A DNA stretch of 57,613 nt, from positions 1-57,613 of the forward strand of contig QLUR01000015.1 of NCBI GenBank assembly GCA_018725565.1, in the 5' to 3' direction. Position numbers and translations under genes: made by a program. This document shows, piece after piece, positions 2,628 to 19,530 of the stretch; within the stretch, counting starts at the first letter, position 1, and the number at the start of each line of letters is the position of its first letter. Source of the DNA: Bacillota bacterium. Lineage in GTDB: Bacteria; Bacillota; Dethiobacteria; Dethiobacterales; Dethiobacteraceae. Below the pieces are notes generated by a model, which had not been told where the DNA came from, did not search any database, and saw only the letters and a program-made list of their open reading frames with translations.

Positions 2628-3628
2628 CCCCCCACAAAGGGACGGTACTTTGCTTCGCCACGTACAAAAGTAGCGATGGTCCTAGCCTGACGCTGGATAA
2701 TGGTAGATAATTTATGTTTCTTTCCGTCGTAGCTTTCCGTGCTGTCAAGCCGGGCCAGAATTTTGGCGGCGAACTCCTTACGGGTGTCGGCAGATAGTTT
2801 GCCTTCTTCAAGCTGCACCTTATAGCCCTTGCTGAACATAGCGATTACTGTCCTGTCCACCACGGGCTGGCGGAATTCTTCAATTAAGTCTAGAACGAGT
2901 GATGGCTTCCCCGGCCTGTCCACATGCATAAAACCGGCAAAAGGCTCAAGTCCCGCCAGAAGAATGGCGCTCCAAAGCTGTGCATAAAGGATTCCGTAAC
3001 CGTAATTAAGCATGGAATTGAACGGGTCTTCAGCGCCGCGGTGCTCCCGGCCGGGGAATTCCACTTTTCCTTCCAGGATGGAAGCAACCTGCTGCCAATA
3101 GATAGCGGACGCCCTCCCTTCAACAGAAAGGTATTGTCCTCTTACCTCGTCAATATTCTGACCCTGATAAGTTTCAAGCTCCTGCAGTATGCCGGTCATT
3201 TTGGCAGCAGCGGACATTACCTGTTCGTAGCTTTCTTTTTTAGCCTCTTTACGGTGCTTGGCAAAATATTTGAGGGTATTGACCTGGTTTTTGATCTTTC
3301 CGGAAACAAAGGCTTTGGCTAATATAATGCCACGCTGGTCAAAATAAGCCATGAGCTGTTCGCGCCTGGTCTGCACGGTGGCCGTCAACTGCGGCGAGCT
3401 GATTTTGGCATAAGGTTGTCCGGTGCTGGAGAGAAAGTTGATTTGCACCCCGTGTTCCATGCACATGCGGATGACATCGCTGGAGAGAGATGCGCCGCCT
3501 GTGGTAATGGTAATTTGGGCCAGGTCAAAGAAAGGTACTTCCTGTACCACTTTGCCGCCTTCTTTGACAACCAGCCGCTCGCTTGTTTTGCCGAGAAAGG
3601 TGCCGTAGTTGTTGATAACCAGGTTCAT
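2621..3628 (-). CDS. cas1: CRISPR integrase Cas1
   Basis: A 335-residue Cas1, the integrase that joins prespacers to the leader-repeat junction. Visible are the N-terminal beta domain (NYGTFLGKTSERL), the SLSSDVIRMC region, ASAIYWQQV, which carries the first active-site Glu region (VEGRAS), the LNYGYGILYAQ helix, the FMHVDRPGKPSLVLDLIEEFR segment with the conserved His and Asp/Glu ligands, and a basic C-terminus. AGGAGG precedes the ATG at the normal distance. Sixty-four bases separate it from csm6, so the adaptation module may be co-transcribed with the type III genes. Confidence 0.96.
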   Translation of the reverse strand: MNLVINNYGTFLGKTSERLVVKEGGKVVQEVPFFDLAQITITTGGASLSSDVIRMCMEHGVQINFLSSTGQPYAKISSPQLTATVQTRREQLMAYFDQRGIILAKAFVSGKIKNQVNTLKYFAKHRKEAKKESYEQVMSAAAKMTGILQELETYQGQNIDEVRGQYLSVEGRASAIYWQQVASILEGKVEFPGREHRGAEDPFNSMLNYGYGILYAQLWSAILLAGLEPFAGFMHVDRPGKPSLVLDLIEEFRQPVVDRTVIAMFSKGYKVQLEEGKLSADTRKEFAAKILARLDSTESYDGKKHKLSTIIQRQARTIATFVRGEAKYRPFVGGW

Positions 3629-3692
3629 TTAATGGGCCTCCTGGGAGGATGTCTGCTCCATAAAGAATTTTCTGTTATTCCCGGAACAAAAA

Positions 3693-5036
3693 TCAAATTG
3701 CTTTAAAAATGAGGCTTCTTATTTTGTTCAATTCCGCTTCACCAAAGGAATACGTATCCAGATCAAGATGTTCAAAAAATACCTGTAAAATCTTTCGCGC
3801 TAAATTCATAGCCGATTGCGCGTCTTCCTCATGAACTGAACCCATACCATGACCGACTATGCTTTTATTACGCCGCTCGTTATATTCTTTAATCTCATTG
3901 CTTAAATGCTCTGCAACTGGAAACCTTTTCTTTTTTACCATCAAAATCTTTTCCCAATCTAATAAACCAAGATAAGCATCCGGCGGCTTCTGGACAATCC
4001 CCTTAACCCATTGAGGTTGATTCCGGTATTTTTGGGTAGGCTCGATTTGCAGCTCAGTTCGTAAAAAAAGGTTTTGACAGCCCTCGTAAAGGCGTTTGAA
4101 ACGTGCCAAACAATCTACATATTGCTTGGCACTCCTACGCCTTTGGGCGTTATGGAACAGGTCAAGAAGGTTTGTTTCGCTCTCCTTTTCTTTACTGGAC
4201 AATATTAATCTCAAGGTTTCAATCTGGGACATAAATTTATTGTTAAGTTGTGAAACCTCAGGCAATCTGGACAGATTTTTTGACACATCTGTTAACAATG
4301 TCCGGGCTTTTTCATGTTGAAATAAATCCCAGTGATAATAAGCTTCGCAGACTCTTGCCATCTCCTCAGCTAATAATGCTCTGTGCGGAAGGTATGTAGC
4401 TAAAGATAAGAGTTCAAGTTCATCCTGAGCCGCTTTAAAATAGTAATCGGCAAAGAAATGCTGCGCCCGGGAAATTTTGTTCTGCTCTTCCACAAATTCT
4501 GTCTCCACTGCTCTGCATCTGGCTTCAGAATTTTCTTGCCATTCTGGCGCGACAACCTGCCACACCTTAGCCTTTAATCTACCTGCGTTAACTAATAATA
4601 GCCAGCAGACCTGCATCTGAGGAGTACCAGAGGAAAGGTTTACGTGGTATTCAGCATTTTTCCCATACTCCTTCTGAACTTGCTTCTGAATTGAGCTTAT
4701 CCCTTTCTCCAACGCAATAAGCAGTTGCCGGTAATCGGTTGGATCAGGCAGGTCAAGGGGGTATTGAAGAACTTTAATGTCAGGACACGAAGCCTTAATT
4801 GCATTACTTGTTTTATCAGCCTGCAACTGAGTATCGGAGGATTTTTCTGACAACTGAGCCACAGTTGGAAACACAATAACCACATCCGGCTCTACTTGCT
4901 GAAATGATGTTAATATTGAGCCTTCTGTCTGCTGCCCTGTTTTAGGGTCGAGAGCATAAGGATCTCGATTGCCGACCATACTTAATAGAACTTTCTTCCT
5001 TATAGCAGTTTCACCCATCATAGTGATGATCCTCAT
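3693..5036 (-). CDS. csm6: Csm6-like CARF-HEPN ribonuclease
   Basis: A CARF-domain sensor with a C-terminal HEPN RNase domain. In type III systems cyclic oligoadenylate made by Cas10 binds the CARF domain and switches on non-specific RNA cleavage. The N-terminus has the Rossmann strand VLLSMVGNRDP and the ligand-loop motif NLSSGTPQMQ. The C-terminus has RNKSIVGHGM at about residues 389-398, a HEPN R-x6-H motif. The family resembles the long TIGR02710-type CARF proteins more than classical Csm6. The reading frame stays open upstream into csm4. ATGs at 5036 and 5021 are both possible, the latter with GAGG nine bases upstream. It follows csm4 directly, where csm5 would be expected. Confidence 0.83.
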   Translation of the reverse strand: MRIITMMGETAIRKKVLLSMVGNRDPYALDPKTGQQTEGSILTSFQQVEPDVVIVFPTVAQLSEKSSDTQLQADKTSNAIKASCPDIKVLQYPLDLPDPTDYRQLLIALEKGISSIQKQVQKEYGKNAEYHVNLSSGTPQMQVCWLLLVNAGRLKAKVWQVVAPEWQENSEARCRAVETEFVEEQNKISRAQHFFADYYFKAAQDELELLSLATYLPHRALLAEEMARVCEAYYHWDLFQHEKARTLLTDVSKNLSRLPEVSQLNNKFMSQIETLRLILSSKEKESETNLLDLFHNAQRRRSAKQYVDCLARFKRLYEGCQNLFLRTELQIEPTQKYRNQPQWVKGIVQKPPDAYLGLLDWEKILMVKKKRFPVAEHLSNEIKEYNERRNKSIVGHGMGSVHEEDAQSAMNLARKILQVFFEHLDLDTYSFGEAELNKIRSLIFKAI

Positions 5037-5972: not shown

Positions 5973-6626
5973 TTAACCCTCATTCAGGCTAAATTTTTTG
6001 CCATCTAGATAAAGGTCTTTAAATTCGATCTGCCCGTAACCTCTGGAGCCGGAACTGCCTAGGTAATCCCTGGTTAATAATTTTAAGCCCTTTTTCATGA
6101 AATTAATGCCGTGTTGTTCGTTGTCCCCATCGAATACTCGGATAACAGCGTTAAATTGAAACTCCGTATCTGCCGGTACACGTTCGAATGTCCGCAGGCC
6201 TCCCTGTCCTGCTCGCCCAGTGCGGCGGTCGATCCAGTTTTCATTTTTTAACTCACTGAAATTCAACCCTTTTCCTTCTTGCGCTTCGCGTAGCTTTGTT
6301 TCCCACTCTTGAGTCAGCGGGGCGTCCCGAAACAAAAACCGGGTCGGTGTGGATGTTCTAAGGGAACCAAAAAAAACGCATACTTCACAGTTTCCACAAT
6401 TGTGGGCCTTGCCGTCCTGGCTTATGTTTCCTGTGCTTAGTTCAAGCAGGGTTCGTATTTTGCCTTTAATCGATGATCCCGGGATATAGGGCAGGTCGGT
6501 AATGGGGTGTCTGATAATCGGGCTGTCAACTCCACCGATGTCCAGATTGTCTTTGGAACCGCCAATCCTCAATCCTGTTTGACACCTGATAGTACCCACA
6601 ATCTCCTTGTAGCCGGTCAGTTTCAT
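5973..6626 (-). CDS. csm3: Type III-A backbone RNase Csm3
   Basis: A 217-residue Cas7-group RAMP forming the helical backbone of the Csm complex and cutting target RNA at 6-nt steps. The segment IGGVDSPIIRHP contains the conserved Asp (Asp34 here), equivalent to the catalytic Asp33 of characterised Csm3 proteins. IPGSSIKGKIR is the RAMP signature, and NCGNCEVC looks like a zinc-binding thumb. The glycine-rich GSSGSRGYGQIEF near the end is also typical. The catalytic residue is retained, so target RNA cleavage is expected. Start and stop are tightly packed between csm2 and csm4. Confidence 0.93.
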   Translation of the reverse strand: MKLTGYKEIVGTIRCQTGLRIGGSKDNLDIGGVDSPIIRHPITDLPYIPGSSIKGKIRTLLELSTGNISQDGKAHNCGNCEVCVFFGSLRTSTPTRFLFRDAPLTQEWETKLREAQEGKGLNFSELKNENWIDRRTGRAGQGGLRTFERVPADTEFQFNAVIRVFDGDNEQHGINFMKKGLKLLTRDYLGSSGSRGYGQIEFKDLYLDGKKFSLNEG

Positions 6627-7693
6627 TCTCCTTTTCCTCCTTCTTTTAATTTGCCTTTAGCAAAGGCAACAATACTTTGGAAATGGTCCACAAAGCCTTT
6701 AAAACCCTTTTCATCATTACTCGCCAAGTCAACGTTCTTTACTACGAAGCCTATAAATACGCCCGGGACAACCTGGCGGGCAGCAGCATAGGCCGCATCC
6801 CGCTCAAAAGCATACAAGTTAGGTAATAAACGATAGAACTCACGGTTAAACTGAAATTTGGTATCAAGTCCTTTCAGTTTGTTGTAAAAACGGCGCAGGG
6901 CTGTGCTGCTAAGGAATGCCTGGGCAAAAATATCAACTATAACTTTCGGCCATTCAATGATAGTTTCCCGGCGCAGGTAGCCGTTTTCGTCGTAATAACT
7001 TCCTTTAAGATAGTTTGGCGGAAGGCCTTGCCCGGCAATCCAGTCTCCGGCAGAAAAGTTTTTATCTGTTTTGGCGTAAGCAATAACACTTTTGTAGTGC
7101 TCCAGAAAGCCGGCAAAAGACTCGGAATCCTGCTCCGCCAAAGGAAGATTTCGTTCAATAAAATCATGAAATTCCGAAGGAACAACCTTTCTTGCCTTTG
7201 CATATTCCACAGTCGACTGAAAACTGGCAAGCTTTACCTTGGTATTGTTGAAATCGCCCGTCTGCTGCAGATGATAGTTGATGGCCTCCAGTGTGTTGTA
7301 GAAGCTTCGCAGCCTAGTGGAAGTTGTGCCGCGGATATTTAGCACATTAGCTATATTCCGGGCCTCAGAAGCAAATATCTCCCGCCGCAATAACCCCCTC
7401 TGGTCAAAATAACCTTTGTGTAAGTAATCTGCGGGAATTCTGTCTGGCACAGATGCGGCCCTCGTTGTGGGAGCGGCTGCACTAAAGTTTGCGGCAAGTT
7501 CCGTGCGCGATTGAGTCACCCCAGCCTTTGCAACAGACATTTCGGCAGACGGTGCTGTTACTTTTTTTGCCGCCCTGCAATCAGGACAGCGCTTAGGGGG
7601 ATCCCATCTGTTTAATGCAAAATCTTTTTGCTCGCGTTCTGTAAAAAGAAAACTCCTTTGACAGTCTTTGCACGTCAACTTTTTATCGGGCAT
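6623..7693 (-). CDS. csm2: Zinc-ribbon + tandem double Csm2 fusion protein
   Basis: The gene sits where csm2 (small subunit, Cas11 group) is expected, but encodes about 356 residues, roughly 2.5 times a normal Csm2. Residues 1-45 form a zinc ribbon with CxxC pairs at C8/C11 and C36/C39 and the FTEREQKDF spacer seen in PF13451-type ribbons. A low-complexity Ala/Thr linker follows. Two homologous Csm2-like helical domains then run from about 90 to 210 and 225 to 350. They share YL-x3-Y-D-x2-G-x-LRRE at their starts, an LR-x-FYN-x-L motif, and the ending GF-x2-(H)-(Y/F)-x-S-(I/V)-x-A-(Y/F)-AK. An ATG at 7693 with GAGGAGG eight bases upstream decides the start; it overlaps cas10 by 11 bases. A duplicated small subunit could occupy two adjacent filament positions. 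The zinc ribbon's role is unknown. Confidence 0.82.
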   Translation of the reverse strand: MPDKKLTCKDCQRSFLFTEREQKDFALNRWDPPKRCPDCRAAKKVTAPSAEMSVAKAGVTQSRTELAANFSAAAPTTRAASVPDRIPADYLHKGYFDQRGLLRREIFASEARNIANVLNIRGTTSTRLRSFYNTLEAINYHLQQTGDFNNTKVKLASFQSTVEYAKARKVVPSEFHDFIERNLPLAEQDSESFAGFLEHYKSVIAYAKTDKNFSAGDWIAGQGLPPNYLKGSYYDENGYLRRETIIEWPKVIVDIFAQAFLSSTALRRFYNKLKGLDTKFQFNREFYRLLPNLYAFERDAAYAAARQVVPGVFIGFVVKNVDLASNDEKGFKGFVDHFQSIVAFAKGKLKEGGKGE

Positions 7694-10055
7694 TGCTCGA
7701 CCTCCTCGCCAATAGTGCATAACGGGCTATCAAAGCCAGATGACGAATTGATTCACCATTGATATTTGCCAACCCGTGGGCCCATTTTTGGATTTCTATT
7801 GTCTCAGTATTCTTTTTAACGTTTCTGTGCACGTCATAATGAAGCAGGGGGATATATTTAAGACCGTCTATTTGCTGGTTGAGGCAGTAACGATCAAACA
7901 TGTTGGCATAAAGCAATAAATGATGAACAAATCGAGTTGAGATCTGGCCTTTTTCAATCCATCCGGTTAAGTTGCGCGCTTCCTCCAGCAGTATCGGAAG
8001 TTGGTCCCATTTTACTGTTTCCTCTAAAAAAGTACACTGATCCTTACCCTCACCAATTACTTTAGGCGCTTTATTCTTAGCTTTGTCCAGGTTTTCTTCA
8101 GCGGCAGCAACGCCGTGAGCTATTGGAAAGGTTGGTTTGACGACGGCAATACCTGCTGAAAGGGTAACGTCTGGATTTTGTCCTGCAAACCGGGCAAAAT
8201 CAGTCCTGAGGTGGCTGATTAAAGCTACTGCTTCATTCCAGGGTCCAACCGCCAACAGATCGTCCCCTCCTGAGTACACCAGGTAGGTATTTGGATAATT
8301 TTCTGCCAGTACATGGTTCACCCAGCCAGAAAAGAAGGTCTCCAACATTCGACTTAGTGTCGCCACTCGCGAAATGGTCCCCCGATCACTTAAGCCGAGG
8401 CTAAAGAGTGCTCCCAAGTTATCGACATCTGCTTTAATGATCCCCAGCATCTTCTTGCCCTGAGAACAACCAGCAATGGTGTCAAAATCCATCGGCTGGC
8501 CATCCTTATTTGGAACAAAAGTACCCCATAATACCTTCTTGACCGGAATGGTGGCAAACTCCTCTATTTCCCCGCTACCGAAATGGTAGGCTATGATTGC
8601 ATTCTCATTACTTGTAGGCGCCTTATCTGCAAGCAATGTCCATAAACCTCCAGGTAATCTTATAGCGTTCGGGTGGTGAGGATTTTTGTTATAGAATACA
8701 ATCATTTTTGCCCTGGGGAATTCTGTTCCTACTCTCAAATCCTGAGCGCAGAGGGTGCAAACGCTGCTATCGTCTATCGTTTTAGCCGCAGGAAGCTTTC
8801 CGCACGACTTACAGTATCCCTGACCTGTACTCTTAGCCTTCTCCAATATGAAGGCGTTTTCCAGCCATACTCCAGCATCATTCTGCAATATGTCACTTAA
8901 AGGGTTTAGTTTTGAGAAAGCGAGTTTTTCCCTGGCCCGGCGCTGAACCCGGTTGTAATGTCGAAATTCTTGCCCGGCAAAAGGTGTTTCTGCCAGATTC
9001 AACGATAACTCACCAGCAAAACTATTTAAAAAATCCCGATTTACCTCCACGCGTAAGTTTTTCAGATAATTACGTACATGAATAGTGTTTGGCAGGAGAA
9101 TGTAGAAATTTCCGCCAGACATAGTAATTATGTTGACTGGAGGCAGGCCAAGGTCATAAACAATCTTATGAGCCAACCCGGCTGAAATCGCGCTCAAGCA
9201 AAAGGAACGTGCCCGCAGCCGCTTTGCTACTCCGCCAACTCCAATTGCCGCAATGTCGAAAATGTAGCGTTGAATCCCCGAAAGATCACCTGTCAGCAAA
9301 AGGAACTTTTCCGCAGTGTCATCAGTAATTATTTCTTCGCTGAAATTGTTCAAGGCAACATGATACTGATACATGGAAGCCGCAATAGCTGCTGTTGTGC
9401 GCAGATGGTCATAAAGGGAAACGTCAGGCAATTTTTCTTGGGTACTAGACGGCAGACACCAGCAGTAATCTTCTAGAATTGTAACCAAATAAGAATAGAG
9501 CGCCAGGAAGGAGTGCCATTTGATTTTGCCAGCATCCTGCATTGCCATGCCGAAATCTTGTGCTAACTTCCCCGTTACAGCAGGGGTTAACATAGCTTCA
9601 TTTCCCGGGAATATATTTTTCGGGGAAAATACCTTTGCCTGATAATACTTGTAGCTCACCTGCGTTTCGGCTCTTAGGCTTAGACGCGAAAGTACCGTAG
9701 TTAAAGGGGTTGTCCTGAAATACCCACTACCGGTATCAGCGTCCCTTTCTGCAGAAGAATAGTTGTCCGCCCGACTCACCAGCAGGCATAGAGCCCGTAT
9801 TTCAGCAGGAGCACTCTGAGCACGTAAATCATCTGGGAACGCTGATGATTCATGATGCCTGGCAACCAAGTTTTCCAATAGCGTCGGGTCTGCCCAGGGC
9901 GTTAAAAAATGACCCCATGATTTGATAAATGTAGCAGATACCTCCGGATGCTTGCCACTAATATTTAAACCACCAAAATCACCTCTTTGGATAAACTTAC
10001 CGATGTCGTGAAACAAGGCTCCAAGCAAAACAGATTGATAGATTATGTCACTCAA
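7683..10055 (-). CDS. cas10: Cas10/Csm1 with HD nuclease and GGDD cyclase
   Basis: A 790-residue large subunit of a type III-A effector. The N-terminal HD domain is intact (FHDIGKF near residue 17, and ARHHESS). The first palm domain has GDLSGIQRYIF. A four-cysteine zinc finger (CKSC...CTLC) lies mid-protein. The second palm has SGGDDLLAVG, with GGDD at about 596-599, the site of cyclic oligoadenylate synthesis. Both activities therefore look functional: DNA cleavage by HD, and signalling to the Csm6-like protein encoded three genes downstream. The start is TTG at 10055 with GAGG about eight bases upstream. Spacing to the zinc-ribbon/Csm2 gene is an 11-base overlap. Confidence 0.94.
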   Translation of the reverse strand: MSDIIYQSVLLGALFHDIGKFIQRGDFGGLNISGKHPEVSATFIKSWGHFLTPWADPTLLENLVARHHESSAFPDDLRAQSAPAEIRALCLLVSRADNYSSAERDADTGSGYFRTTPLTTVLSRLSLRAETQVSYKYYQAKVFSPKNIFPGNEAMLTPAVTGKLAQDFGMAMQDAGKIKWHSFLALYSYLVTILEDYCWCLPSSTQEKLPDVSLYDHLRTTAAIAASMYQYHVALNNFSEEIITDDTAEKFLLLTGDLSGIQRYIFDIAAIGVGGVAKRLRARSFCLSAISAGLAHKIVYDLGLPPVNIITMSGGNFYILLPNTIHVRNYLKNLRVEVNRDFLNSFAGELSLNLAETPFAGQEFRHYNRVQRRAREKLAFSKLNPLSDILQNDAGVWLENAFILEKAKSTGQGYCKSCGKLPAAKTIDDSSVCTLCAQDLRVGTEFPRAKMIVFYNKNPHHPNAIRLPGGLWTLLADKAPTSNENAIIAYHFGSGEIEEFATIPVKKVLWGTFVPNKDGQPMDFDTIAGCSQGKKMLGIIKADVDNLGALFSLGLSDRGTISRVATLSRMLETFFSGWVNHVLAENYPNTYLVYSGGDDLLAVGPWNEAVALISHLRTDFARFAGQNPDVTLSAGIAVVKPTFPIAHGVAAAEENLDKAKNKAPKVIGEGKDQCTFLEETVKWDQLPILLEEARNLTGWIEKGQISTRFVHHLLLYANMFDRYCLNQQIDGLKYIPLLHYDVHRNVKKNTETIEIQKWAHGLANINGESIRHLALIARYALLARRSSNAR

Positions 10056-10367
10056 ACCCCATCCTCACCCTTTCTTCAGGTTAGCTTGAATTCAGTCCGG
10101 CATACATGAAACGGAAAAGTAAACACTCAGGAAAACACCAAGTGGACTTATATATGGAATTGTACCCCTATCTCCAGGGTATTGTCTCCGTTAGAGCCGG
10201 ACCTGTTGTTTTTTTACGCCGCCCCGTTGCCGCTACGCTTTGAGGTCATATCAAACCGGCGAGGTCATTTTTTCCAGTGCTGATGAGTATCGTACCGTCT
10301 TTGAATATTACATCTGGTAAGTGCCTAGAATTCAAATGCCGCTGTCGCTTATATTATCGGCTTGTTA
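10056..10367 (-). other. Intergenic region upstream of cas10
   Basis: This 312-base stretch has no convincing gene and separates the type I module plus the MNT gene from the type III module. On the minus strand it holds a possible promoter just upstream of the type III genes: GAGACA (10182-10187) followed after 18 bases by TACAAT (10158-10163). The spacer carries a small dyad, TACCC and GGGTA (10163-10181), with loose resemblance to the array repeat. A plus-strand peptide remnant ending FEYYIW at about 10270-10320 was not recognised. Confidence 0.35.
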
Positions 10368-10688
10368 TTAGCAAACCTCTATCCCCGTCTCAACGATCTC
10401 CCGCACAAACGGGTCGTCCAAAACAAAATCTTCCGGCCTAAAAGGCATCGGCTCTATTCTTAGATCGATACCCCTTCTTTTCTGCAGCAACCAAAATTGG
10501 TCTTCTATTCTGTCGCCTGTAAAGTCTGGAGAGATCACCGCTACGTCAATATCACTGTCAATGACATGGGCGCCTCTTGAGTGTGAGCCATAGAGAATAA
10601 CTTTAAAAACCTGCTTTTCTTTGCCTATAACTTCAGCAAATCTAAGGACGATGTCGATTATCTTTTGCTGAGCGTCTTCTTTATCCAT
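10368..10688 (-). CDS. MNT-type minimal nucleotidyltransferase inside the cas cluster
   Basis: A 106-residue protein with the minimal nucleotidyltransferase core: GSHSRG at about residue 35, followed by DSDIDVAVI with the metal-binding Asp pair, and a third acidic strand GIDLRIEP. This fold includes MntA antitoxins, which AMPylate a partner HEPN toxin. Normally a HEPN gene is adjacent; none is found here. Only 29 bases separate it from cas5, on the same strand, so it is probably co-transcribed with the type I effector genes. The nearest HEPN protein in the cluster is the Csm6-like RNase. Function here is unknown; it may be a leftover half of a toxin-antitoxin pair or a regulator. Confidence 0.8.
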   Translation of the reverse strand: MDKEDAQQKIIDIVLRFAEVIGKEKQVFKVILYGSHSRGAHVIDSDIDVAVISPDFTGDRIEDQFWLLQKRRGIDLRIEPMPFRPEDFVLDDPFVREIVETGIEVC

Positions 10689-10717: not shown

Positions 10718-11485
10718 CTAATCTATGGTCCTGACATAATAAGTAAAGTGTCTGCCGCTGGCAACGTAACGGTAGGGTAGAAGCGTTCTTATCAGTACTC
10801 TGTATTCGCCAAGGGCGGAAGGTTTGGTTCCGTAGGTGTTAATCCGCTCAAAGCCGTGCTTGTCCTTAACTAACGCTTCGCCGAAGTCATCCAGGTAATT
10901 GGTTGTGGCATAATTGCCCTGCGCCATTGCTGACGCGGTTTCCGGACAGGAAAAACCTGCGGGTAAAGGCCCTGGTAAAATATCCAAGGAAAGATATTGC
11001 ATAAACGAGCCTCTTTTGCCCAAATAATTAATATAGGGAGCGAGATTTGACAGCTCGTCTACCTCATGGCTGGTCAGGCCGGAGACTGCCAAGGCAACCT
11101 CCAGGTCGCCGTCAAAATAGCAGAATTCTCTATAGGCTATTGTCGGCGCGTATATCCCCGCAGGTGCATCCCGTTCTTCTTGTTTTACTTTAAGAAAGGT
11201 GTTCTGAATCACGCAGCGGTCGGGCGGACGAAAGCGAACCTGGCTGCCTTTCAGCAGATTAAACACCTTCTTACTTGTGGACAAAGCCTCGTCGGCTGAA
11301 AATTTGCGAAAGCAGGCATCTATAAAAGCAAGTTTTACCGCGTAAGGCGTAGGTACAAGCAGCGTTTTGCCACCTTTACTAGTAGCATGCGTCATGCGCA
11401 AGGAAAAAAGAGAGGTTGGACGGTAGCGGATCACAAGCCATTTTTCTTTACTTGCCTGCTTTTCATAAGATACGGTAGTCTCCAT
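10718..11485 (-). CDS. cas5: Type I Cascade subunit Cas5
   Basis: A RAMP protein of about 255 residues that caps the crRNA 5' handle in Cascade. The N-terminus has the RAMP strand WLVIRYRPTSLFSLR and the LLVPTPYAVKLAFIDACF helix typical of Cas5 from I-A/I-B-like systems. IYAPTIAYREFCYF and the LAPYINYLGKRGSFMQYL segment follow. An in-frame TTG at 11500 overlaps cas7, but the ATG at 11485 has GGAG nine bases upstream and begins two bases after the cas7 stop. Fixed position after cas7 supports the assignment. Confidence 0.85.
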   Translation of the reverse strand: METTVSYEKQASKEKWLVIRYRPTSLFSLRMTHATSKGGKTLLVPTPYAVKLAFIDACFRKFSADEALSTSKKVFNLLKGSQVRFRPPDRCVIQNTFLKVKQEERDAPAGIYAPTIAYREFCYFDGDLEVALAVSGLTSHEVDELSNLAPYINYLGKRGSFMQYLSLDILPGPLPAGFSCPETASAMAQGNYATTNYLDDFGEALVKDKHGFERINTYGTKPSALGEYRVLIRTLLPYRYVASGRHFTYYVRTID

Positions 11486-11487
11486 AT

Positions 11488-12474
11488 TTATTCGCTCCAA
11501 GGCTGCACTGTGTTAATCAGCGAGCCCATAACTTCACTGAAATCGCCAAGCCCGGAAAACCGCCAGACTTTAATGCTTTCTTCCCCACCGATGGATTTAA
11601 GGCTTTCTGCTATTTTTGTGATTTCTTCCGCGAAATCATTTCTTAACGCACTGATGGTCGGGGCGGGTAAAGCGCTGCAGGACGCCGTAATCACGCCGCT
11701 AAAATCCAGAATATGCGGAAGCTGTGTATTCCTGTGCGCTCCGGACGGCTTAATGAAAGTGTACATCACACTTTTCAGCATCGCCCGGACACGCTGCAGG
11801 CGGCTATGCTCGTCCAAATCATAGCATAATGTAATGTCGTTGCGCCCGATCCGGAATAAATCTACGTTAAGAATAGCCGCATACTGGCCGCTGGAGGCAG
11901 GCCGGTGAAAAATGTTTTGCCCCAAGTTTTGCTCTGATCCGGAACCTGTTCCCCTTCCCTCTGGAACATACTTGGCATGCATGTATACTTCGGTTTTTGT
12001 GTTTTCCGGCCGTCCCACCATCCAGCCAAACTCAATTGTAGACTTTCTGGCAAGCGACTTCGAGCCAGCCCAGCCTGTAAGGAGAATTCCTTCGCAATCA
12101 TCAAGAACACAAGCATTGAGCACCTTGCTGAGATTAAAGGAATCCATCTTGCGTTCTTCTTTTGCCGCTTTGTATTCCGGGCTGCCCTCAATCTTAGCGG
12201 CCAGCTCAAAATCGCTGGCAATACGGTTAGCGTCAAACTGTGCGCAGCCGCCGCAAAGAGGGAGGCTTTTATCCTTGGCTTCCCGGAAAAGGTGTTCAGC
12301 CTGAATATGCTTTAACATGTCACCGGAGACAGCGTTAACCGTGTGCAGATCCCCTTCGGTATCAACTATTTCCACCATTCTGGTCATCAATGTATTGCCC
12401 TCCGCACCTTCATTGTTTAAAGCGTGCAGGTTCATGGTAACCAGTCCTGAAACCGCCAGAGAATTAATTTTCAT
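11488..12474 (-). CDS. cas7: Type I Cascade backbone Cas7 (Csa2/DevR family)
   Basis: A 328-residue member of the DevR/Csa2 group of Cas7 proteins, which polymerise along the crRNA. Recognisable parts are the first strand NSLAVSGLVTMNLHALNN, the NTLMTRMVEIV region, HIQAEHLF followed by LCGGCAQFDANRI, a glycine/serine-rich EGRGTGSGSEQN loop, and the DLFRIGRND strand. Some family members were described as autoregulators, which is of interest given the guide-like RNA upstream. The ATG overlaps the cas8-like stop by 11 bases with GGAGG at a good distance. Confidence 0.87.
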   Translation of the reverse strand: MKINSLAVSGLVTMNLHALNNEGAEGNTLMTRMVEIVDTEGDLHTVNAVSGDMLKHIQAEHLFREAKDKSLPLCGGCAQFDANRIASDFELAAKIEGSPEYKAAKEERKMDSFNLSKVLNACVLDDCEGILLTGWAGSKSLARKSTIEFGWMVGRPENTKTEVYMHAKYVPEGRGTGSGSEQNLGQNIFHRPASSGQYAAILNVDLFRIGRNDITLCYDLDEHSRLQRVRAMLKSVMYTFIKPSGAHRNTQLPHILDFSGVITASCSALPAPTISALRNDFAEEITKIAESLKSIGGEESIKVWRFSGLGDFSEVMGSLINTVQPWSE

Positions 12475-14188
12475 TTAACTTTTCCTCCTCTACCTGTCCC
12501 TGTTCCGGGGCAGCAGTATCCGCCTTTAACGTTCTGGCATAGCCGTAGGCCAACAGCAGCATTCCCACCAATTCCGCCCCTCTGCTGTTGATTAGATTTA
12601 TTAACTCACCAAGTTCGGCAGCATTGACTTTATGCTGTTTCCAGGCAACAGATTCCTTTTTATTGACGTCAATGTTTTCGCTTTCCCAGTTATACTGCTG
12701 AACAAATTCACATAGTGCCGCCGTAAATTCCTCATTACCTCCCTTTATCTTTTGTTTCCATTTTTGCGAGAGACCAAAATGCACATCACGTGTACGTTTC
12801 TGTTTTTGTGCGGCCAAAGCGTAGATAGTAGCCTCCCTTAGCGCTCTTGCCACACTTTGAAACCCTTTGGTCTGAATGATGTCCAACATGTTATACCCCC
12901 TTTCAAAGATTATATTTAGATTGGCCGTAGACTGAGACGCAATCCACTCGTCCTTGGACATCCGCTCCATCTGATGGAGGGAAAAACGGTAACAAAATTC
13001 CAGATACTCTTTTAATGTCCCGGTCATTAACCACTTGCGGAACTGCTGCAAAACCGGGATATCGCCGGAGCGCTCTTCGCTTAGGGAGCGGAGACAGCCA
13101 GTCACGCCGTCACGCTCCTTATGGCCGATAAAAGCTTTGATTAAAGCAAGATAGTTCTTGGCATCCTCTTGCCCCTCCACGCAAAACCAAGAGGGCAAGG
13201 CTAAAAATGAATAATTCATCAGGGCGGCAGCGGTGCCGAGACTCTGAAAATAGGCCTGGTGTAAGCCTTTCACGACCTCTGCCGGCCTTTTCCGGTAAAG
13301 AGAAATGTTGCCCCCCAGGACATCCGAATGGGTTATCAATAGCTCCGTCAGGCGCAGGGCAGAATCAATATCAAGCTTTATCCCTCCCCATAGATCAAGC
13401 CCTCGTAAACCGTGGTACAACTTTGTCAATAAATTCAACTTAATATCGGCCGGCTCAATAACAAATACTTTAAAATCACCTCCACTTCGATAAGGCAGCA
13501 TTACCCGATAGGAACCTCTGAATTTCAGCCATTCGGCAAAGGGTTCAATGACTTCATCTGAAATACTGGCCGGTGTAGTTGAATCAGGCTTTGGCCTGTG
13601 GATTCCTTTGCCCGCAATCGGGTTAAAGACTTGGCTGTTGCTGACAGGCGGGTCTTTAACGATTTCTCCGATATAATCCTTCCCATTATAATGATAATGG
13701 GTCAAGTTTTGAGCTACCCAAGCTGTAGCCCTTGTTTGGTCTTCGGTGATCCACTCATAAAGACTTTTGTCCGAAGCCCAGCCTTTACGCATCGAAGCAA
13801 GGAAAACTGCCAGCTTCAACTCAGGGACCGGCGGCGGCGGACCTTCTTCTCCCTGTTCCCTCAGCAATTGTTCCAGTTTTTCTCGCTTTTTCCCGGCAGC
13901 CTTTCTAAACTCCCGGTGTTGTTTATCCTTCTCTCGCTCTTGCTCATAATCCACTACCCAACCGGCCGGTCTTTTCCCGTCTTTTAACAAGTAAATATAG
14001 GGATAGCCCGGCTCAATCAGCACCCAGTCCGCCGGAGAAGGCAGATCAGGCCCTTCCAGGAGATAAACGGCTCCCCGATCCTGAATGACGAAATCAGAAT
14101 TGGTCAACTCTGCAAGCAAGGATGCCAACCCCACTGCCGTCATAGTATCCGCGTAGGTTTGCGTTTTTTTAGTTACTTCGTACCTCAT
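12464..14188 (-). CDS. Cas8-like Cascade large subunit
   Basis: A protein of about 574 residues between cas3 and cas7, the position of the Cascade large subunit that recognises the PAM. I recognise no motif that fixes the subtype; the Csa1, Cas4 and Csa2-type Cas7 around it argue for I-A-like (Cas8a). The N-terminus has TMTAVGLASLLAELTN, then a lysine/glutamate-rich, predicted coiled segment, a proline run (GPPPPVPELK), and a mostly helical C-terminal third that could supply the small-subunit function, since no separate Csa5/Cas11 gene exists in this module. The open frame extends upstream to 14329 inside cas3. The ATG at 14188 with GGAGGAG directly upstream is the natural start and overlaps the cas3 end by 20 bases. 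Confidence 0.7.
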   Translation of the reverse strand: MRYEVTKKTQTYADTMTAVGLASLLAELTNSDFVIQDRGAVYLLEGPDLPSPADWVLIEPGYPYIYLLKDGKRPAGWVVDYEQEREKDKQHREFRKAAGKKREKLEQLLREQGEEGPPPPVPELKLAVFLASMRKGWASDKSLYEWITEDQTRATAWVAQNLTHYHYNGKDYIGEIVKDPPVSNSQVFNPIAGKGIHRPKPDSTTPASISDEVIEPFAEWLKFRGSYRVMLPYRSGGDFKVFVIEPADIKLNLLTKLYHGLRGLDLWGGIKLDIDSALRLTELLITHSDVLGGNISLYRKRPAEVVKGLHQAYFQSLGTAAALMNYSFLALPSWFCVEGQEDAKNYLALIKAFIGHKERDGVTGCLRSLSEERSGDIPVLQQFRKWLMTGTLKEYLEFCYRFSLHQMERMSKDEWIASQSTANLNIIFERGYNMLDIIQTKGFQSVARALREATIYALAAQKQKRTRDVHFGLSQKWKQKIKGGNEEFTAALCEFVQQYNWESENIDVNKKESVAWKQHKVNAAELGELINLINSRGAELVGMLLLAYGYARTLKADTAAPEQGQVEEEKLNEN

Positions 14189-16556
14189 CTTCTCCTCCTT
14201 TTCCACTACCCGCTTGATCGGCCAAACGAAGCTCGCGGACAATGTAAAAATATAAAGGTAACCATGCTTCGTCTTCTTCCCTGACTGCTGAAAGCAGTTC
14301 CCCGGCAAATTCCCGACAGCTGTATTCATCAGCAGGTTCGTCCATCTTTAGAGCAAGGGGCAACCCGGCAGCCTCCAGACATTGATTTACTGTTTTAACT
14401 GCTCCAGGAGCCAATCGAAATGACCGTAGAGTACCGGCAAAACCGGTATGATGGCGAGCGATGGCCGTTAGCACGCAGGAGGCAATGCTTTCATTCCCCT
14501 CAAACAGATGGAAAATATATTCGCGAAGCGAGTAAGCGCCTTCCACTGCGTGATTAGGCCTCTTGGGGAAGGTAAGCTGCCGCTTATTATCGGTATGAGG
14601 GTCAAAGTCAGTATGCGCTATCATTTCTTTAGCTGAACCCGGGGTTTTATATTCCTGCCAGCTTTGGGCTGCGTGCTGCCAATCAGCCATGAGCTTGCCG
14701 CTGTCATGACAAACGATAGCGAGTTGGATGGCTTTTTCAACCAGTTCTGGAGGTACTTTTAATATGTTTGCCAAGCAAAGTCTGGCAAAGAAACTATTAT
14801 TCTCGCGAGCCTTATACTGCGCTAAAGACAATAGGGCATGATCTTGAAATGATTGGCGCTGGTAGCCAAACAGGCTGATTCTATTTCTTTGTTTATACCG
14901 TATAGGATTTGTTTCGCCAGGTTTGCCGAGAACAAGGCCCTGCTCAGCGGAGTAAGCGGCAAATTCAGGGTTTAGAGCCACAAGCCAGGCAGAAGCAATC
15001 CCGGAATGATTAGTTTCTTTCCAACGGAATAATAGCTTTGCCGTATCTTCAGCCTCATCTTCTTCCGGTATTTTTGCGACCCACCTGCCCTTTGCGCTCT
15101 CAACGGTTTTCTTCACATGTTTTAACAGGGAACCCGTTGGAACAGAAAGCATCTCCGGCCATGAGCCGTAAAAATCAAAACTGATTTTTTCCGGTTCGGC
15201 AGCAATCAGGACGCTTACATTATTTACTTCACGCACCAGTTCTTCTTTAGCGCTTTTTAACATGCCGTCCATACTCTGATTAACTCTGTTTTTGCGGGTG
15301 TATAGATTAGAAAAAGCTGACAGGTTCTGCTTCTCCTGCAACCCCATGGTGCTGTTTACTGCCTGCCTTTCTTTCCTATAGTCCAAAATTTGACCGAAAT
15401 ACTCCTCCTGCTGCAATACTTCTCTGGTAGCGTCAAGAATTTCCTTGTCGTAGGGAAGATGATTTTCCACCGGGAATATTCTCACTTCGCCTTTTCCCCC
15501 GTAGCGCGCGCAGCGGCCGGCGCGCTGGATCAGGTTGTTCATGGGAGCCATTTCGCTCAATAAGGTATCCGCTGAAAAATCCATCCCTGCTTCCACGACC
15601 TGAGTGCTTACCACAATGAAATCGTCTTTTTGAGACTGCCTTCCCTTGCCAAAGCGCAAAATTATTTCTTTTTCCTTCTCTCCCCTGTCTTCTGTAAAAA
15701 ACCGGGAGTGTACTAGCAACGCTTCAGTTTCTTTTGATTTTTTTTGCAGAATATCTACTAATAAACTTTGAGATCTCTGAACCGTGTTCACAATTACCAG
15801 AGTGCGGCCACAATGCAATCTAAGTACCTCGTCCGCTGAAAGCTGGCCTTTCTGAAGTTCCCACAGGCGCTGCGTTGGTTCTTTTTTACTCTTTTCTATC
15901 CGTGCTATTTCCTCTTGTGTTAAATCAACAACGGCTGCCCTGTGCAGGCGGGCTGATAGCCAATCCACAGCGTAATCTGAAAGTGTGGCAGTCATGATAA
16001 CAAAGCGGCAGAGACCAGCAAAGCGCCGCAACATCTCCACGACTGTGGCCAGGGAACGCTGTGGGTCAAGCAAGTGAAATTCATCCAGGACGACCAGACT
16101 GCCTAGGATGGCACCAGTATTAATGTTAGCCAGCCGGGCGGGAAGGGAAACAGGAGAGAGTATGTATGAAGAAAGCAACTGGTCGATAGTAGTAAAAATT
16201 ATGTCGCCCTGGAAAAATCGGTCATCTTGCTGTTCTCCAGTTTGAATTGTCACGGAGGGTTGCTTATCAAGGAGCGAACTTGCTTTACGACAAGAAATGC
16301 GAGTGTCGCTGTAAAGCTGTCCGGCCAAGGATTTCAGCGGCAGCGCATAAATAACTCTGTCTGCGAAACTCTTTTGTATCTTCCTTGAGTAAAGAAACGG
16401 CAACAGGGCAGCCCAAGTTTTGCCGGCCCCTGTTGGTGCCCGTAGAATAATATTGTCGCCGGCCATTAGCTTTTCCGTTACAATTTTTTGATAGGGATAA
16501 AGACTTGCGCCAGGAATATCTGTTAATGACTCAAAAAGCTTTTCAAGAGTGTCCAC
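14169..16556 (-). CDS. cas3: Cas3 helicase with C-terminal HD nuclease
   Basis: A 795-residue effector nuclease-helicase. Superfamily 2 motifs are clear: APTGAGKT at residues 40-47, VVLDEFHLLDP (DEFH, motif II), VIMTATLSDY (motif III) and LIQRAGRCARYGG (motif VI). The last 200 residues hold the HD domain: CHDSGKLMADWQ, a later HAVEGAYS, and ARHHTGFAG. HD lies after the helicase, the reverse of the common HD-helicase order, and no separate HD gene is present. Translation starts at a GTG at 16556 with AGGAG nine bases upstream. The promoter lies about 50 bases further up. It is the first gene of the cas3-cas8-cas7-cas5 operon and the predicted target of the guide-like RNA described below. Confidence 0.94.
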   Translation of the reverse strand: MDTLEKLFESLTDIPGASLYPYQKIVTEKLMAGDNIILRAPTGAGKTWAALLPFLYSRKIQKSFADRVIYALPLKSLAGQLYSDTRISCRKASSLLDKQPSVTIQTGEQQDDRFFQGDIIFTTIDQLLSSYILSPVSLPARLANINTGAILGSLVVLDEFHLLDPQRSLATVVEMLRRFAGLCRFVIMTATLSDYAVDWLSARLHRAAVVDLTQEEIARIEKSKKEPTQRLWELQKGQLSADEVLRLHCGRTLVIVNTVQRSQSLLVDILQKKSKETEALLVHSRFFTEDRGEKEKEIILRFGKGRQSQKDDFIVVSTQVVEAGMDFSADTLLSEMAPMNNLIQRAGRCARYGGKGEVRIFPVENHLPYDKEILDATREVLQQEEYFGQILDYRKERQAVNSTMGLQEKQNLSAFSNLYTRKNRVNQSMDGMLKSAKEELVREVNNVSVLIAAEPEKISFDFYGSWPEMLSVPTGSLLKHVKKTVESAKGRWVAKIPEEDEAEDTAKLLFRWKETNHSGIASAWLVALNPEFAAYSAEQGLVLGKPGETNPIRYKQRNRISLFGYQRQSFQDHALLSLAQYKARENNSFFARLCLANILKVPPELVEKAIQLAIVCHDSGKLMADWQHAAQSWQEYKTPGSAKEMIAHTDFDPHTDNKRQLTFPKRPNHAVEGAYSLREYIFHLFEGNESIASCVLTAIARHHTGFAGTLRSFRLAPGAVKTVNQCLEAAGLPLALKMDEPADEYSCREFAGELLSAVREEDEAWLPLYFYIVRELRLADQAGSGKGGEDEVRSN

Positions 16557-16577
16557 ATCATACCACTCCTAAATATG

Positions 16578-16597
16578 CCCTGGTGGGTTTTAATCTT
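16578..16597 (+). promoter_or_regulatory. Predicted partial protospacer in the cas3 5' UTR
   Basis: Plus-strand CCC at 16578-16580 is followed by TGGTGGGTTTTAATCTT at 16581-16597. The 17 bases match the first 17 spacer-like bases of the predicted crRNA-like RNA at 16693 down to 16677, with one mismatch at position 5; the match stops at base 18. The CCC lies where a type I PAM is expected, and CCN is the PAM known for type I-A systems. The site lies between the predicted cas3 transcription start (about 16606) and the start codon, where bound Cascade would block the operon. Confidence 0.7.
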
Positions 16598-16612
16598 TTA
16601 CGATTCAAGTAT

Positions 16613-16641
16613 AGAATACGATGCTTTAACATTAAAGTCAA
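16613..16641 (-). promoter_or_regulatory. Promoter of the cas3-cas8-cas7-cas5 operon
   Basis: On the minus strand TTGACT (16641 to 16636), a 17-base spacer and TATTCT (16618 to 16613) form a good vegetative promoter. The start would be near 16606, leaving about a 50-base leader before the cas3 GTG. Confidence 0.75.
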
Positions 16642-16643
16642 GC

Positions 16644-16727
16644 AAAAAAGTCATCTCACAGGGAAAATTAGTTGTGAAGATTAAAACCAACCAATTCCAG
16701 TCCCTTATTACGAGATGACTTTTCTTA
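16644..16727 (-). ncRNA. Candidate crRNA-like guide RNA (CreR-like) for autorepression of cas
   Basis: Predicted RNA of about 83 nt, transcribed leftward from its own promoter. It opens with AAAAGUCAUCUC and ends with the exact complement GAGAUGACUUUU plus two more U, so a 12-bp closing stem and U-run bound it (arms 16712-16723 and 16646-16657). Inside, AAUAAGGGACUGGAAU (16709 to 16694) matches the last 16 bases of the array repeat at 13 positions without gaps, including GGGACUG of the repeat stem and handle. Starting exactly at the repeat-spacer boundary (16693), 17 bases match the cas3 5' UTR at 16 positions, next to CCC. This is the layout of the crRNA-like regulators known as CreA/CreR, in which partial pairing permits Cascade binding without interference. 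No second repeat is evident; the 3' end is set by the U-run. The RNA's existence and processing are inferred. Confidence 0.72.
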
Positions 16728-16733
16728 TTGTGT

Positions 16734-16763
16734 ATTGTATTTCCAGCGAGTCATAAAAGTCAA
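16734..16763 (-). promoter_or_regulatory. Promoter of the guide-like RNA
   Basis: Minus-strand TTGACT (16763 to 16758), an 18-base spacer and TACAAT (16739 to 16734) predict a start at about 16727, immediately before the closing-stem arm of the guide-like RNA. The -35 region lies in a small dyad (CGAGT at 16747-16751 and ACTCG at 16763-16767). The remaining stretch to 16896 shows no gene. Confidence 0.6.
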
Positions 16764-16896
16764 CTCGTAACCAGGTCGCAGATAGATTTTTGTCAGAAGT
16801 GATAATTGGTCAAATCAGGGATATTATCCATAATCCCCCGCATCGTAATAGAAGCGCAGGGAATCCGGCCTGAGCATATTCGGCAGCAGCGCTTTT

Positions 16897-17880
16897 CTAT
16901 GGTTGCTGTTGGTTGTACCTCCCCAACCCGGCCTGCAGCTCTTCCTTTATCTGCTCCCGCAGGGCCTGCGGTTCGAGCACTTCAACCTGTTTCCCCCAGC
17001 TGAGGAGCCAGCTTTTTAGCTCCGGGCTGTTGTAGACGTTAAGGGTACAAATGATTCGGCCGTCGGCCAATTCCTCGAGTTGTTGCGAGTTGTGATAGCA
17101 TGATTCACGGAAGAAGCGGGAGGCCGGAGGGTAGACTAGAAAGCGGACGCTGACTTCCTCAGTGCCGCTCCAGACGCGAAAACTTGGCCCCAGGTAATCT
17201 TCCAGGCTGAAAGAGGGGTTGCGCGTAAACGGGTTGTTTTGGGCTTTAACGCTCTTAAAGCGGTCTATGCGAAAATTGCAGACCTGGTTTCGTATATGGC
17301 AATGGGCAGCCAGATAGAGGTTGCCTTCCCCCCAAAAAAGATGATACGGGTCAAGGACACGCTGCGTCACTTTGCCGCTGGAGTAAGAATCATATATGGC
17401 TGTCACGCTGCGGCTGCGGCGGATACAGTCGGTTAATGTGGCGATCATCTCCTGCCAGGGCGAGTAATCCCGCAGTTCTTCGCTTAGATATGTAAAGTGC
17501 GGTTTCAGGCGCCGGTAGGCATTGGTATCCTCGCCGCTGCGGATAACGCTCTCCATTTTGACCAGGGCAGACTGGAGGTGCTGGCAGAGGGCAAGACCTG
17601 CTTGGCTAAGCAGTGACTGGCTGGCAGCCGCCAAGGCCAAGGCCTCGGGTCCGGTAAAGGAGACCGGAGTTAATAAATATTTCCGCTCTCGCGCTTCCGG
17701 GTCGCTGCTGGGACGAACAGGATAGCCCAGCTCTCTTAGTGACCGGAGATAACGGTAGGCGGTGCGTTCGCAAATTTGCAGGCTGGCGGCGATTTCTTTT
17801 GCTGAAATACCTTGGCCTGAGTTTGAGTTTAAGATGTGCATGACGCCTGTTAATCGATGAAATTTGTTAGCTTTGCTCAT
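16897..17880 (-). CDS. WYL-domain transcriptional regulator of the cas cluster
   Basis: A 327-residue regulator. The N-terminal winged helix is clear (ISAKEIAASLQICERTAYRY, then LRELGYPV), and the C-terminal half is a WYL ligand-sensing domain, with the AIYDSYSSGKVTQRVLDPYH strand and FRIDRFKSV. WYL proteins commonly regulate CRISPR and other defence genes, sometimes sensing nucleic acids. The start at 17880 has GGGAGG five bases upstream; the frame continues further up without a ribosome site. It lies between cas6 and the cas3 operon on the same strand, with a promoter of its own. Confidence 0.88.
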   Translation of the reverse strand: MSKANKFHRLTGVMHILNSNSGQGISAKEIAASLQICERTAYRYLRSLRELGYPVRPSSDPEARERKYLLTPVSFTGPEALALAAASQSLLSQAGLALCQHLQSALVKMESVIRSGEDTNAYRRLKPHFTYLSEELRDYSPWQEMIATLTDCIRRSRSVTAIYDSYSSGKVTQRVLDPYHLFWGEGNLYLAAHCHIRNQVCNFRIDRFKSVKAQNNPFTRNPSFSLEDYLGPSFRVWSGTEEVSVRFLVYPPASRFFRESCYHNSQQLEELADGRIICTLNVYNSPELKSWLLSWGKQVEVLEPQALREQIKEELQAGLGRYNQQQP

Positions 17881-17899
17881 AACTGCCTCCCTTGGCGCA

Positions 17900-17928
17900 A
17901 TCATACCAAAAGAAATAATTACTGGCAA
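17900..17928 (-). promoter_or_regulatory. Promoter of the WYL regulator gene
   Basis: Minus-strand TTGCCA (17928 to 17923), a 17-base spacer and TATGAT (17905 to 17900) sit 20 bases before the start codon. A dyad TGAC-N7-GTCA at about 17938-17952, just upstream of the -35, could be an operator for autoregulation. Confidence 0.6.
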
Positions 17929-17969: not shown

Positions 17970-18971
17970 TTACTGGATGGTTAATTTATATTTGCCAAAG
18001 CCAAAAACGGTGTTTTTACCGACATGGACCTGTTCGCCTAGGGCGAGCCAAGGTATAAATTCAGTTAAGTCTCCCTGGTAGGTGACTGTACCGATCAGCC
18101 CGCCCATGTTGATCCGTTGCTCCTGGCGATGGGAGTAGCGCTCAAGGTCTTGCCAACTGGTATTGTTTGCCGACAGGGTAATGTGCCGTGAGCGAACAGC
18201 TAGGCCGCCATAGTCGGCATCAAGCCGCTGACCGTGGTGAAAATAGGACAGGGAGGAGATACGGCGCATGATTTGCCGAAAAAAGACATGAAACTCTGGA
18301 ACAGTGGCGCAGGTGCCGTCATCTACCAGGCGGGCGGGTGTTATGAATTTGATCTGTATTTCTGATATGGGAGGAAAACTCCTGGAGGGAAAAGTGTCAG
18401 ACAGGTCCACGTTGCGAACAGTATTGGTCCCTGAGGAGTAAATCTGCTCTGCCTGGTGCCGGCCAAGCGCTGTCACTTCCTCAAGAATAAAAGGACGTCG
18501 GCCGCGTCCCAGACCTGTTTCCCCCATTTCCCGAAAGACAACGATAAAATATGGGAGGTAACTGTTGGCGCGGCCGAAAAGCAGGAGCTGAAAGTCGAGT
18601 GTTTCGCCTGGAGCGTAGAAGGTTTTTGTCTCGGTTGGCGGCTCAAGGACAAAAGGGCGGGGGATACTTTCGTATTTGCTGAGCGCCTGGCTGTTTTCCG
18701 GGGGAAAGGTTTCAAAGATATAGGCGTAGGGACACTGGCTTTTAAGCAGACAGTTTAAACAATCCTGCTCACGCACGGCACAGGCGATACGGCGGAATAC
18801 GGCGCCAAAGCCGCCGCGAAATGTGGCGCCTTTATAGGGAGGGAGAATCAGGCCCTGTTTCCCGGCTGATAAAGTTATACGGTAGCGGGCAATCCGAAAG
18901 AAATCGAACAAGCGGTCAGCCTCCTGTGCCTTTGAGCAAATGAACAGGCAAGTTGCAGTAGTTTTCGCCAT
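17970..18971 (-). CDS. cas6: CRISPR RNA-processing endoribonuclease Cas6
   Basis: A Cas6 of the PF10040 type, the enzyme that cuts the array transcript within repeats. Features: YKGATFRGGFGAVFRR near the N-terminus, a cysteine cluster CLNCLLKSQCPYAYIF, GETGLGRGRRPF, and the C-terminal glycine-rich loop GEQVHVGKNTVFGFGKY that binds the repeat. An ATG at 18971 gives 333 residues. A TTG at 18911 has AGGAGG eight bases upstream and gives 313 residues, which may be the true start. It is the only Cas6 in the window, so it must serve both effectors and possibly the guide-like RNA. Confidence 0.88.
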   Translation of the reverse strand: MAKTTATCLFICSKAQEADRLFDFFRIARYRITLSAGKQGLILPPYKGATFRGGFGAVFRRIACAVREQDCLNCLLKSQCPYAYIFETFPPENSQALSKYESIPRPFVLEPPTETKTFYAPGETLDFQLLLFGRANSYLPYFIVVFREMGETGLGRGRRPFILEEVTALGRHQAEQIYSSGTNTVRNVDLSDTFPSRSFPPISEIQIKFITPARLVDDGTCATVPEFHVFFRQIMRRISSLSYFHHGQRLDADYGGLAVRSRHITLSANNTSWQDLERYSHRQEQRINMGGLIGTVTYQGDLTEFIPWLALGEQVHVGKNTVFGFGKYKLTIQ

Positions 18972-19049: not shown

Positions 19050-19487
19050 TCAATTCTCACCATTATTCAGGTACGCCTCCCGCAGGGAATCGTCGTAATC
19101 CCTGTAAAATTTATTCATGGTGATGGCAAAGTCCTGATAATACTTGATTACGCTTTCCATGAAATCGCTGGTTGCATCAGGGTCTCTCTCAAAAACTAGC
19201 CGCCCTTCGTTTATAACGCGGAAACGGAGAACTAGATGGGCTTTATTAAGGTTCACTAAATCGACCTGGTCTGTATCAAGGGCGATTGTCAGCCTGTTTA
19301 GCAAAGCGGCTTCGTCTTGTAAAGTCTGCTCCCGATTGTAATAAACTGCAAAATCTATATCACTTAAAGGCGTTTGATAGACGGTACCATAAGACCCAAA
19401 TAAATAAACGGTCTGTACCTCCGGCATTGATGCAAACAGCCCGGCCAGTCCATCTATTCTGTTATCAAGCTGAAGCATTCCCGGCAT
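19050..19487 (-). CDS. MntA-like nucleotidyltransferase without adjacent HEPN partner
   Basis: A protein of about 145 residues with FGSYGTVYQTPLSDIDFAVY, the MNT active site with GS and D-x-D, and a helical C-terminus ending MNKFYRDYDDSLREAY. That ending closely resembles the C-terminus of the MntA at 37010-37462, so the two are paralogues. MntA proteins neutralise HepT by adding AMP to a tyrosine. No HepT gene follows here; a terminator and cas6 do. The gene is therefore an orphan antitoxin half. The ATG at 19487 has GGAGG eight bases upstream; a GTG at 19496 is less likely. Confidence 0.83.
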   Translation of the reverse strand: MPGMLQLDNRIDGLAGLFASMPEVQTVYLFGSYGTVYQTPLSDIDFAVYYNREQTLQDEAALLNRLTIALDTDQVDLVNLNKAHLVLRFRVINEGRLVFERDPDATSDFMESVIKYYQDFAITMNKFYRDYDDSLREAYLNNGEN

Positions 19488-19530
19488 ATCCGGCACCTCC
19501 GTTCAGGCTTATTTTAACAGGGAAGCAATG

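Follow-up and report, generated by a model that had tools for sequence, protein, structure and literature searches.

Sequence evidence for a probable CreR-type autorepressor RNA gene upstream of bacterial type I-A and type I-D CRISPR operons

The window analyzed here comprises 57,613 nucleotides and corresponds to a single contig (G000:C20) from a Bacillota genome; its nearest type I-A relatives belong to the same class. We find that positions 16727 to 16644 on the minus strand very likely represent a CreR-type autorepressor RNA gene of the adjacent cas3 operon. The promoter, handle, register, CCN flank, guide/target co-variation and conserved hairpin are shown from the sequence; transcription, loading, repression and its relief are inferred. 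The decisive evidence for guide function is the co-variation of guide and target in relatives, not the handle match. On sequence evidence, type I-D and the type I-A systems of bacteria hereby join the CRISPR types with RNA-guided self-repression, and the relatives offer a natural experiment, with the same small-RNA gene located before different effector types and its guide refitted to each local promoter.

The locus and the small-RNA gene

Read along the minus strand, the locus comprises cas6 (17970-18971; Pfam CRISPR_Cas6, 2.3e-21), the gene of a WYL-domain regulator (16897-17928; Pfam WYL and WCX), a gap of 340 nt, cas3 (14169-16556; a helicase with C-terminal HD, assigned by profile search), cas8a (12464-14329; PADLOC Cas8a, 3.8e-47), cas7 (Csa2/DevR, 11488-12474; Pfam DevR, 4.8e-68) and cas5a (10718-11500; PADLOC Cas5a, 3.2e-67). 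These are followed by an MNT-type nucleotidyltransferase gene, a III-A module (cas10, csm2, csm3, csm4 and a CARF-HEPN protein), putative cas1, cas2 and cas4-like genes that were identified by eye from translations without profile search, and a CRISPR array at the contig edge (45-752, repeat GTTACACCGATTACCCCGACGAATAGGGGACTGAAAC in minus-strand reading). With Cas8a, I-A-type Cas5 and Cas7, and Cas3, the window meets the criteria for type I-A. As separate observations, MNT-type nucleotidyltransferase genes are present twice, between the I-A and III-A modules (10368-10688) and upstream of cas6 (19050-19496), and the csm2 reading frame (6623-7720, 365 aa) yields two Csm2 domain matches, hinting at an internal duplication or fusion.

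A single degenerate repeat is found outside the array, between the WYL gene and cas3. It is preceded by a sigma70-type promoter, TTGACT-N18-TACAAT (16734-16763, minus strand), recovered by sequence reading and by promoter scan, from which we infer an RNA of 84 nt that starts at about 16727 and ends in a U-run at 16644 (covariance model match 16645-16719, with orthologues in four genomes). The 5' arm of the closing stem P1, AAAAGTCATCTC (16712-16723), is the perfect complement of the 3' arm at 16646-16657; a script check confirmed the 12 base pairs and that the run of six Ts (16649-16644) overlaps the last Ts of the stem. Within the hairpin, 13 of the 16 nt of the handle AATAAGGGACTGGAAT (16709-16694, minus strand) agree with the 3'-terminal 16 nt of the array repeat. 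The handle match alone is not special, since another 13/16 match to the repeat is present in the window at 6620. No model of Rfam 15 matched within 16400-17000 at E up to 1. For a CreR RNA, transcription and processing by Cas6 to an 8-nt 5' handle are expected; as only promoter-like and terminator-like signals are available here, without expression data, transcription and processing of creR remain inferred from sequence alone.

Directly after the handle follows the guide segment TGGTTGGTTTTAATCTT (16677-16693, minus strand), which is identical at 16 of 17 positions to TGGTGGGTTTTAATCTT at 16581-16597 on the plus strand, with positions 18-20 unmatched (script check). This target, with its CCC flank at 16578-16580, occupies approximately +10 to +26 of the cas3 transcript, downstream of the operon promoter TTGACT-N17-TATTCT (16613-16641, minus strand; promoter scan), and its end is separated from the cas3 start codon by about 24 nt without an open reading frame. 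Of 4000 dinucleotide-shuffled versions of the region upstream of cas3, none reached a CC-flanked guide match as good as this one, and when the genome was searched with the CC flank as part of the pattern, no other site had one mismatch or fewer. Thus, all the elements that an initial annotation of this stretch had described, namely the promoter, the 12-bp stem, the U-run, the 13/16 repeat match, the 16/17 guide match and the CCC flank, were confirmed at their positions, and its RNA of about 83 nt from 16727 to 16644 is here 84 nt.

Cas6 and the WYL regulator are encoded upstream of creR and outside the target promoter, which therefore drives cas3 and the downstream genes. Bearing on whether the III-A module is co-transcribed, positions 10124-10188 hold a weak terminator-like match and one promoter-like match, the promoter matches not exceeding shuffle level.

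Relatives with and without the element

Relatives were gathered via homologues of Cas3 and Cas8a, which returned six I-A loci in the class. The element is located directly upstream of cas3 in four of them: the window, G065 (L038), G051 (L041) and G081 (L105). A covariance model was built from these four and run over 98 genomes of the class, yielding one strong new match (E 2.6e-8), in G068, a genome outside the training set. There, cas6, WYL and the element are followed by cas10d, cas11d, cas7d, cas5d and cas3d, a type I-D operon. Compared to the window, Cas6 of G068 is 64% and its WYL protein 51% identical, and the latter shares 78% identity with the WYL protein of the I-A locus in G065; the WYL proteins of G065, G051 and G068 form one subfamily with that of the window. 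The five elements are spread over several genera, the four relatives being Dethiobacteria-like. Promoter-like hexamers similar to those of the window precede the element in all four by reading, the handle is AATAAGGGACTGAAAA or AGTAAGGGACTGAAAA, and the array repeats of these genomes have the 3' core GGGGACTGA in common.

The element is absent from the upstream regions of the I-A loci G018 and G066 of the same class, the WYL genes of which share only some 27% identity with the WYL gene of the window, and from G071, which carries a related WYL gene and a I-D operon. A phylum-wide model search of 398 genomes, with few candidates scored per genome, retrieved no further member.

Other candidates were rejected. 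A model match in G014 (E 0.0046) resembles a dispersed repeat and lacks neighbouring cas genes in the sequence examined, and viral contigs with the handle motif gave 44 exact matches, near the number that we estimate for chance, with a top covariance score of 22 bits. Lone repeats in G051 and G065 ending in TATACAAGGGGACTGAAAC look like an insertion-sequence end adjoining array repeats. On a separate note, TAAATCGGCCGCTGCTCATAGTRTATACAA adjoins GGGGACTGAAAC in arrays of G051 (L108) and G065 (L120:2407), a junction shared by both genomes that would suit an insertion sequence always inserting into the repeat at the same position.

Guide and target change together

The guide and target sequences of the four relatives are wholly different, with the match to the own promoter kept. 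Among the first 14 guide bases, 13 match the own promoter in the window, 12 in G065, 13 in G051, 11 in G081 and 12 in G068, while the 20 non-cognate pairs of guide and promoter reach only 4-9. All five cognate sites are CCN-flanked and begin precisely where the handle ends. A shift of the guide start by 1-6 bases abolished the match in every locus, the exception being a shift of +1 in the window, for which CCC likewise supplies a CC flank one base on. Shuffled promoter regions matched the observed value in 0-0.1% of cases across the five loci, and when the flank requirement was dropped the same sites remained the best in five of five, all with CC; the PAM is deduced from five target sites, not from protospacers. 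Each site is found shortly downstream of a promoter-like TTGAxx-N17-hexamer, as judged by eye, with a tool scan in the window only.

These data bear on one alternative explanation, that the element is merely a degenerating lone repeat or a leftover of an array, whose resemblance to the nearby promoter is accidental. In its favour, the handle match is weak when taken alone, with its second occurrence in the window. However, handle, hairpin and own-promoter match are kept in five genomes while the guides turn over, and the cross-guide control contradicts it, so that this reading is all but excluded. The initial annotation had relied on four coinciding properties (degenerate repeat, register, PAM and location), and had named as refutation homologous loci in which conservation of the repeat-like segment does not go along with that of the matching segment. 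Indeed, the four properties recur in relatives, weak as the handle match is by itself, and the refutation did not materialize: handle, register, CCN flank and own-promoter match are all present in the four relatives with an orthologous element. To its account we add that the terminator-like hairpin pairs the 5' end of the guide in four of five RNAs and that the module also precedes a I-D operon, and we correct it in that two I-A relatives of the class are without the element.

The mismatches within positions 1-14 are at 5 in the window, 5 and 6 in G065, 12 in G051, 4, 6 and 12 in G081, and 6 and 12 in G068. Six of the nine fall at positions 6 or 12, i.e. every-sixth positions (binomial 5e-4). 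Type I effectors flip out every-sixth guide positions, and in a characterized I-F CreA positions 6, 11 and 18 are unpaired (PMC10097628).

A second alternative is that the RNA acts on the 5' UTR of the cas3 mRNA, as an antisense small RNA or as a guide of the type III-A complex. In its favour, the guide runs antisense to the transcript of the operon in the window and in G051, G081 and G068, and the window has a III-A module at the same locus. In G065, however, the guide is sense to the mRNA. Sites in both orientations relative to the mRNA speak against a common mechanism by antisense RNA or by Csm acting on mRNA, whereas Cascade can bind either strand. Moreover, the unimposed CC flank in five of five loci, the handle register and the mismatches at positions 6 and 12 point towards a DNA-binding type I complex. 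We consider this alternative very improbable.

A terminator-like hairpin that pairs the guide

For each of the five RNAs a single long hairpin is predicted, with energies of -21 to -27 kcal/mol. P1 pairing holds in 100% of the alignment cells and includes two pairs in which both partners have changed, and for the whole structure 90% of cells are paired, compared to 47-57% when slid. With only five sequences, and an alignment that was fitted to the tested structure, we regard these statistics as moderate evidence. In the predicted folds, the 5' end of the guide pairs with a 3' arm in four of five despite the differing guides (inner fold p 0.002-0.046); this pairing is absent from the fold of G068. 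The UCUC that closes P1 can alternatively pair with GGGA, forming a weak hairpin of -2.4 to -3.5 kcal/mol, a faint version of the CCCC/GGGG hairpin of the array repeat (-7.8 kcal/mol).

It is conceivable that Cas6 catches this UCUC/GGGA form during transcription, the alternative being loading without Cas6; both are inferred. Any processing by Cas6 would leave an end at ACTGGAAT. As the predicted free RNA hides the 5' end of the guide, a loading step would have to open the hairpin. A bolder reading, which we offer as no more than a possibility and as a joint claim, is that of a terminator-embedded CreR family where the free RNA hides the guide 5' end and only capture by Cas6/Cascade exposes the guide, so that the RNA serves as a sensor of free effector, the family travelling with cas6 and WYL and the guide re-evolving when the effector changes between I-A and I-D.

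A putative self-repression circuit

In the autorepressor model that we favour, a short RNA would start at its own sigma70 promoter and end at the terminator-like hairpin, its single degenerate repeat providing the Cas5a/Cas7/Cas8a complex with a 5' handle like that of a crRNA. Through its guide, the RNA would bring this complex to the cas3 operon promoter, at the CCN-flanked site that closely follows the -10 element. Some 12-17 paired bases would be enough for binding and for blocking RNA polymerase, and probably too few for cutting by Cas3. The effector operon would thereby repress itself, until repression is lifted by competition from ordinary crRNAs or by loss of Cascade, for example through anti-CRISPRs. 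The self-limiting CreR-like circuit put forward in the initial annotation is thus supported at the sequence level, with processing putative and repression inferred from known CreR biology, and its suggested de-repression by phage inhibitors is an inference from that biology only. If correct, expression of these effectors would go up in the presence of phage inhibitors directed at them, and a search for guides that match promoters could uncover such RNAs where the repeats have decayed.

Several points count against the model. Each locus has one to three mismatches among guide positions 1-12, in the window at position 5; the predicted concealment of the guide in the free RNA calls for an opening step; the element is missing from G018, G066 and G071; and the flank in the I-D locus of G068 is CCT, whereas known I-D systems use a GTN PAM.

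The remaining alternative is a CreTA-like addiction module, in which the promoter mainly controls a toxin and repression of cas3 is a side effect. The guide logic would be the same, G051 has a 63-aa reading frame between the target and cas3, and in G068 some 500 nt ahead of cas10d include a remnant of DUF433. Conversely, the distance from target to start codon in the window leaves no space for a toxin gene, and no small reading frame is common to all loci, rendering this alternative very unlikely. For completeness, the reading frame in G051 (L041, approximately 3526-3717) has no Pfam match, and DUF433 remnants are seen beside cas promoters in G068 (L098, from target to cas10d) and in G205 (L102, upstream of a mini-array).

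Comparison with known systems

A more distant case was found in G205, from another class of Bacillota, where two degenerate repeats flank a spacer of about 17 nt (L102, 9177-9250, minus strand) upstream of a I-A cas3, the classical two-repeat layout. The spacer start matches CCT|TTAATGTTTTAATA (target at 9365, plus strand), located 87 nt upstream of cas3; of 12 scored positions, 11 agree (p 4e-4), with the register peak at 0. A solitary degenerate repeat in G408 was rejected for want of a convincing promoter match. Separately, an Acidobacteriia contig (L044) has a lone repeat between cas3 and cas8a (6640-6680), followed by a sequence that matches at its positions 1-5 and 7-11 a CCG-flanked site (6369) near the cas3 end (p 0.0025); it may perhaps be another CreA/CreR.

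Among the characterized RNAs, CreA of CreTA (I-B in archaea, I-F in Acinetobacter; PMC8501985, PMC10097628) resembles the element in its partial seed complementarity, PAM and unpaired position 6, and the creA of Haloarcula hispanica is a one-repeat form with a terminator (PMC8501985, PMC10097628). CreA, however, represses a toxin RNA, whereas the element targets cas3 (or cas10d) itself, and no toxin gene (creT) under the targeted promoter was found in the window between target and cas3 start. In type II-A, the tracr-L RNA drives self-repression of Cas9, and Cas9 autorepression is mentioned in the CRISPR-regulation literature (CreR review). Here too a CRISPR effector is directed at its own promoter by a short-guide RNA, but the system is class 2, with a natural single guide derived from tracrRNA and no repeat-derived guide gene. 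In Sulfolobus, I-A Cascade/Csa3b is reportedly linked to transcription control (He et al. 2017); that regulation depends on the protein Csa3b and, to our knowledge, involves no dedicated guide RNA.

The closest counterpart is CreR, a cas-regulating RNA known for types I-B, I-E and V-A (reviews PMC13131331, PMC12737573), the CreA/CreR literature also including PMC8501985, PMC9458426 and PMC10097628. The mechanism class is thus already known. A CreR of type I-A or I-D was not found in the literature searched, which did not cover the primary 2023 Cell Host Microbe CreR paper or a survey of CRISPR-derived regulatory RNAs; nor were an RNA embedded in a terminator-like hairpin with its seed paired and the difference in effector, I-A or I-D, around a common module. 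Like CreR, the element is crRNA-like, with a degenerate repeat outside the array and a partial match to the cas operon promoter, and requires no toxin; PAM-flanked partial guide complementarity to the cas operon promoter, one criterion for CreR, holds in five of five loci under the cross-guide, register and shuffle controls. Unlike the known CreR forms, it is associated with I-A and I-D, has one repeat only, and lies within a terminator-like hairpin with the guide 5' end paired in most members, and the effector type varies around a common cas6-WYL-creR module.
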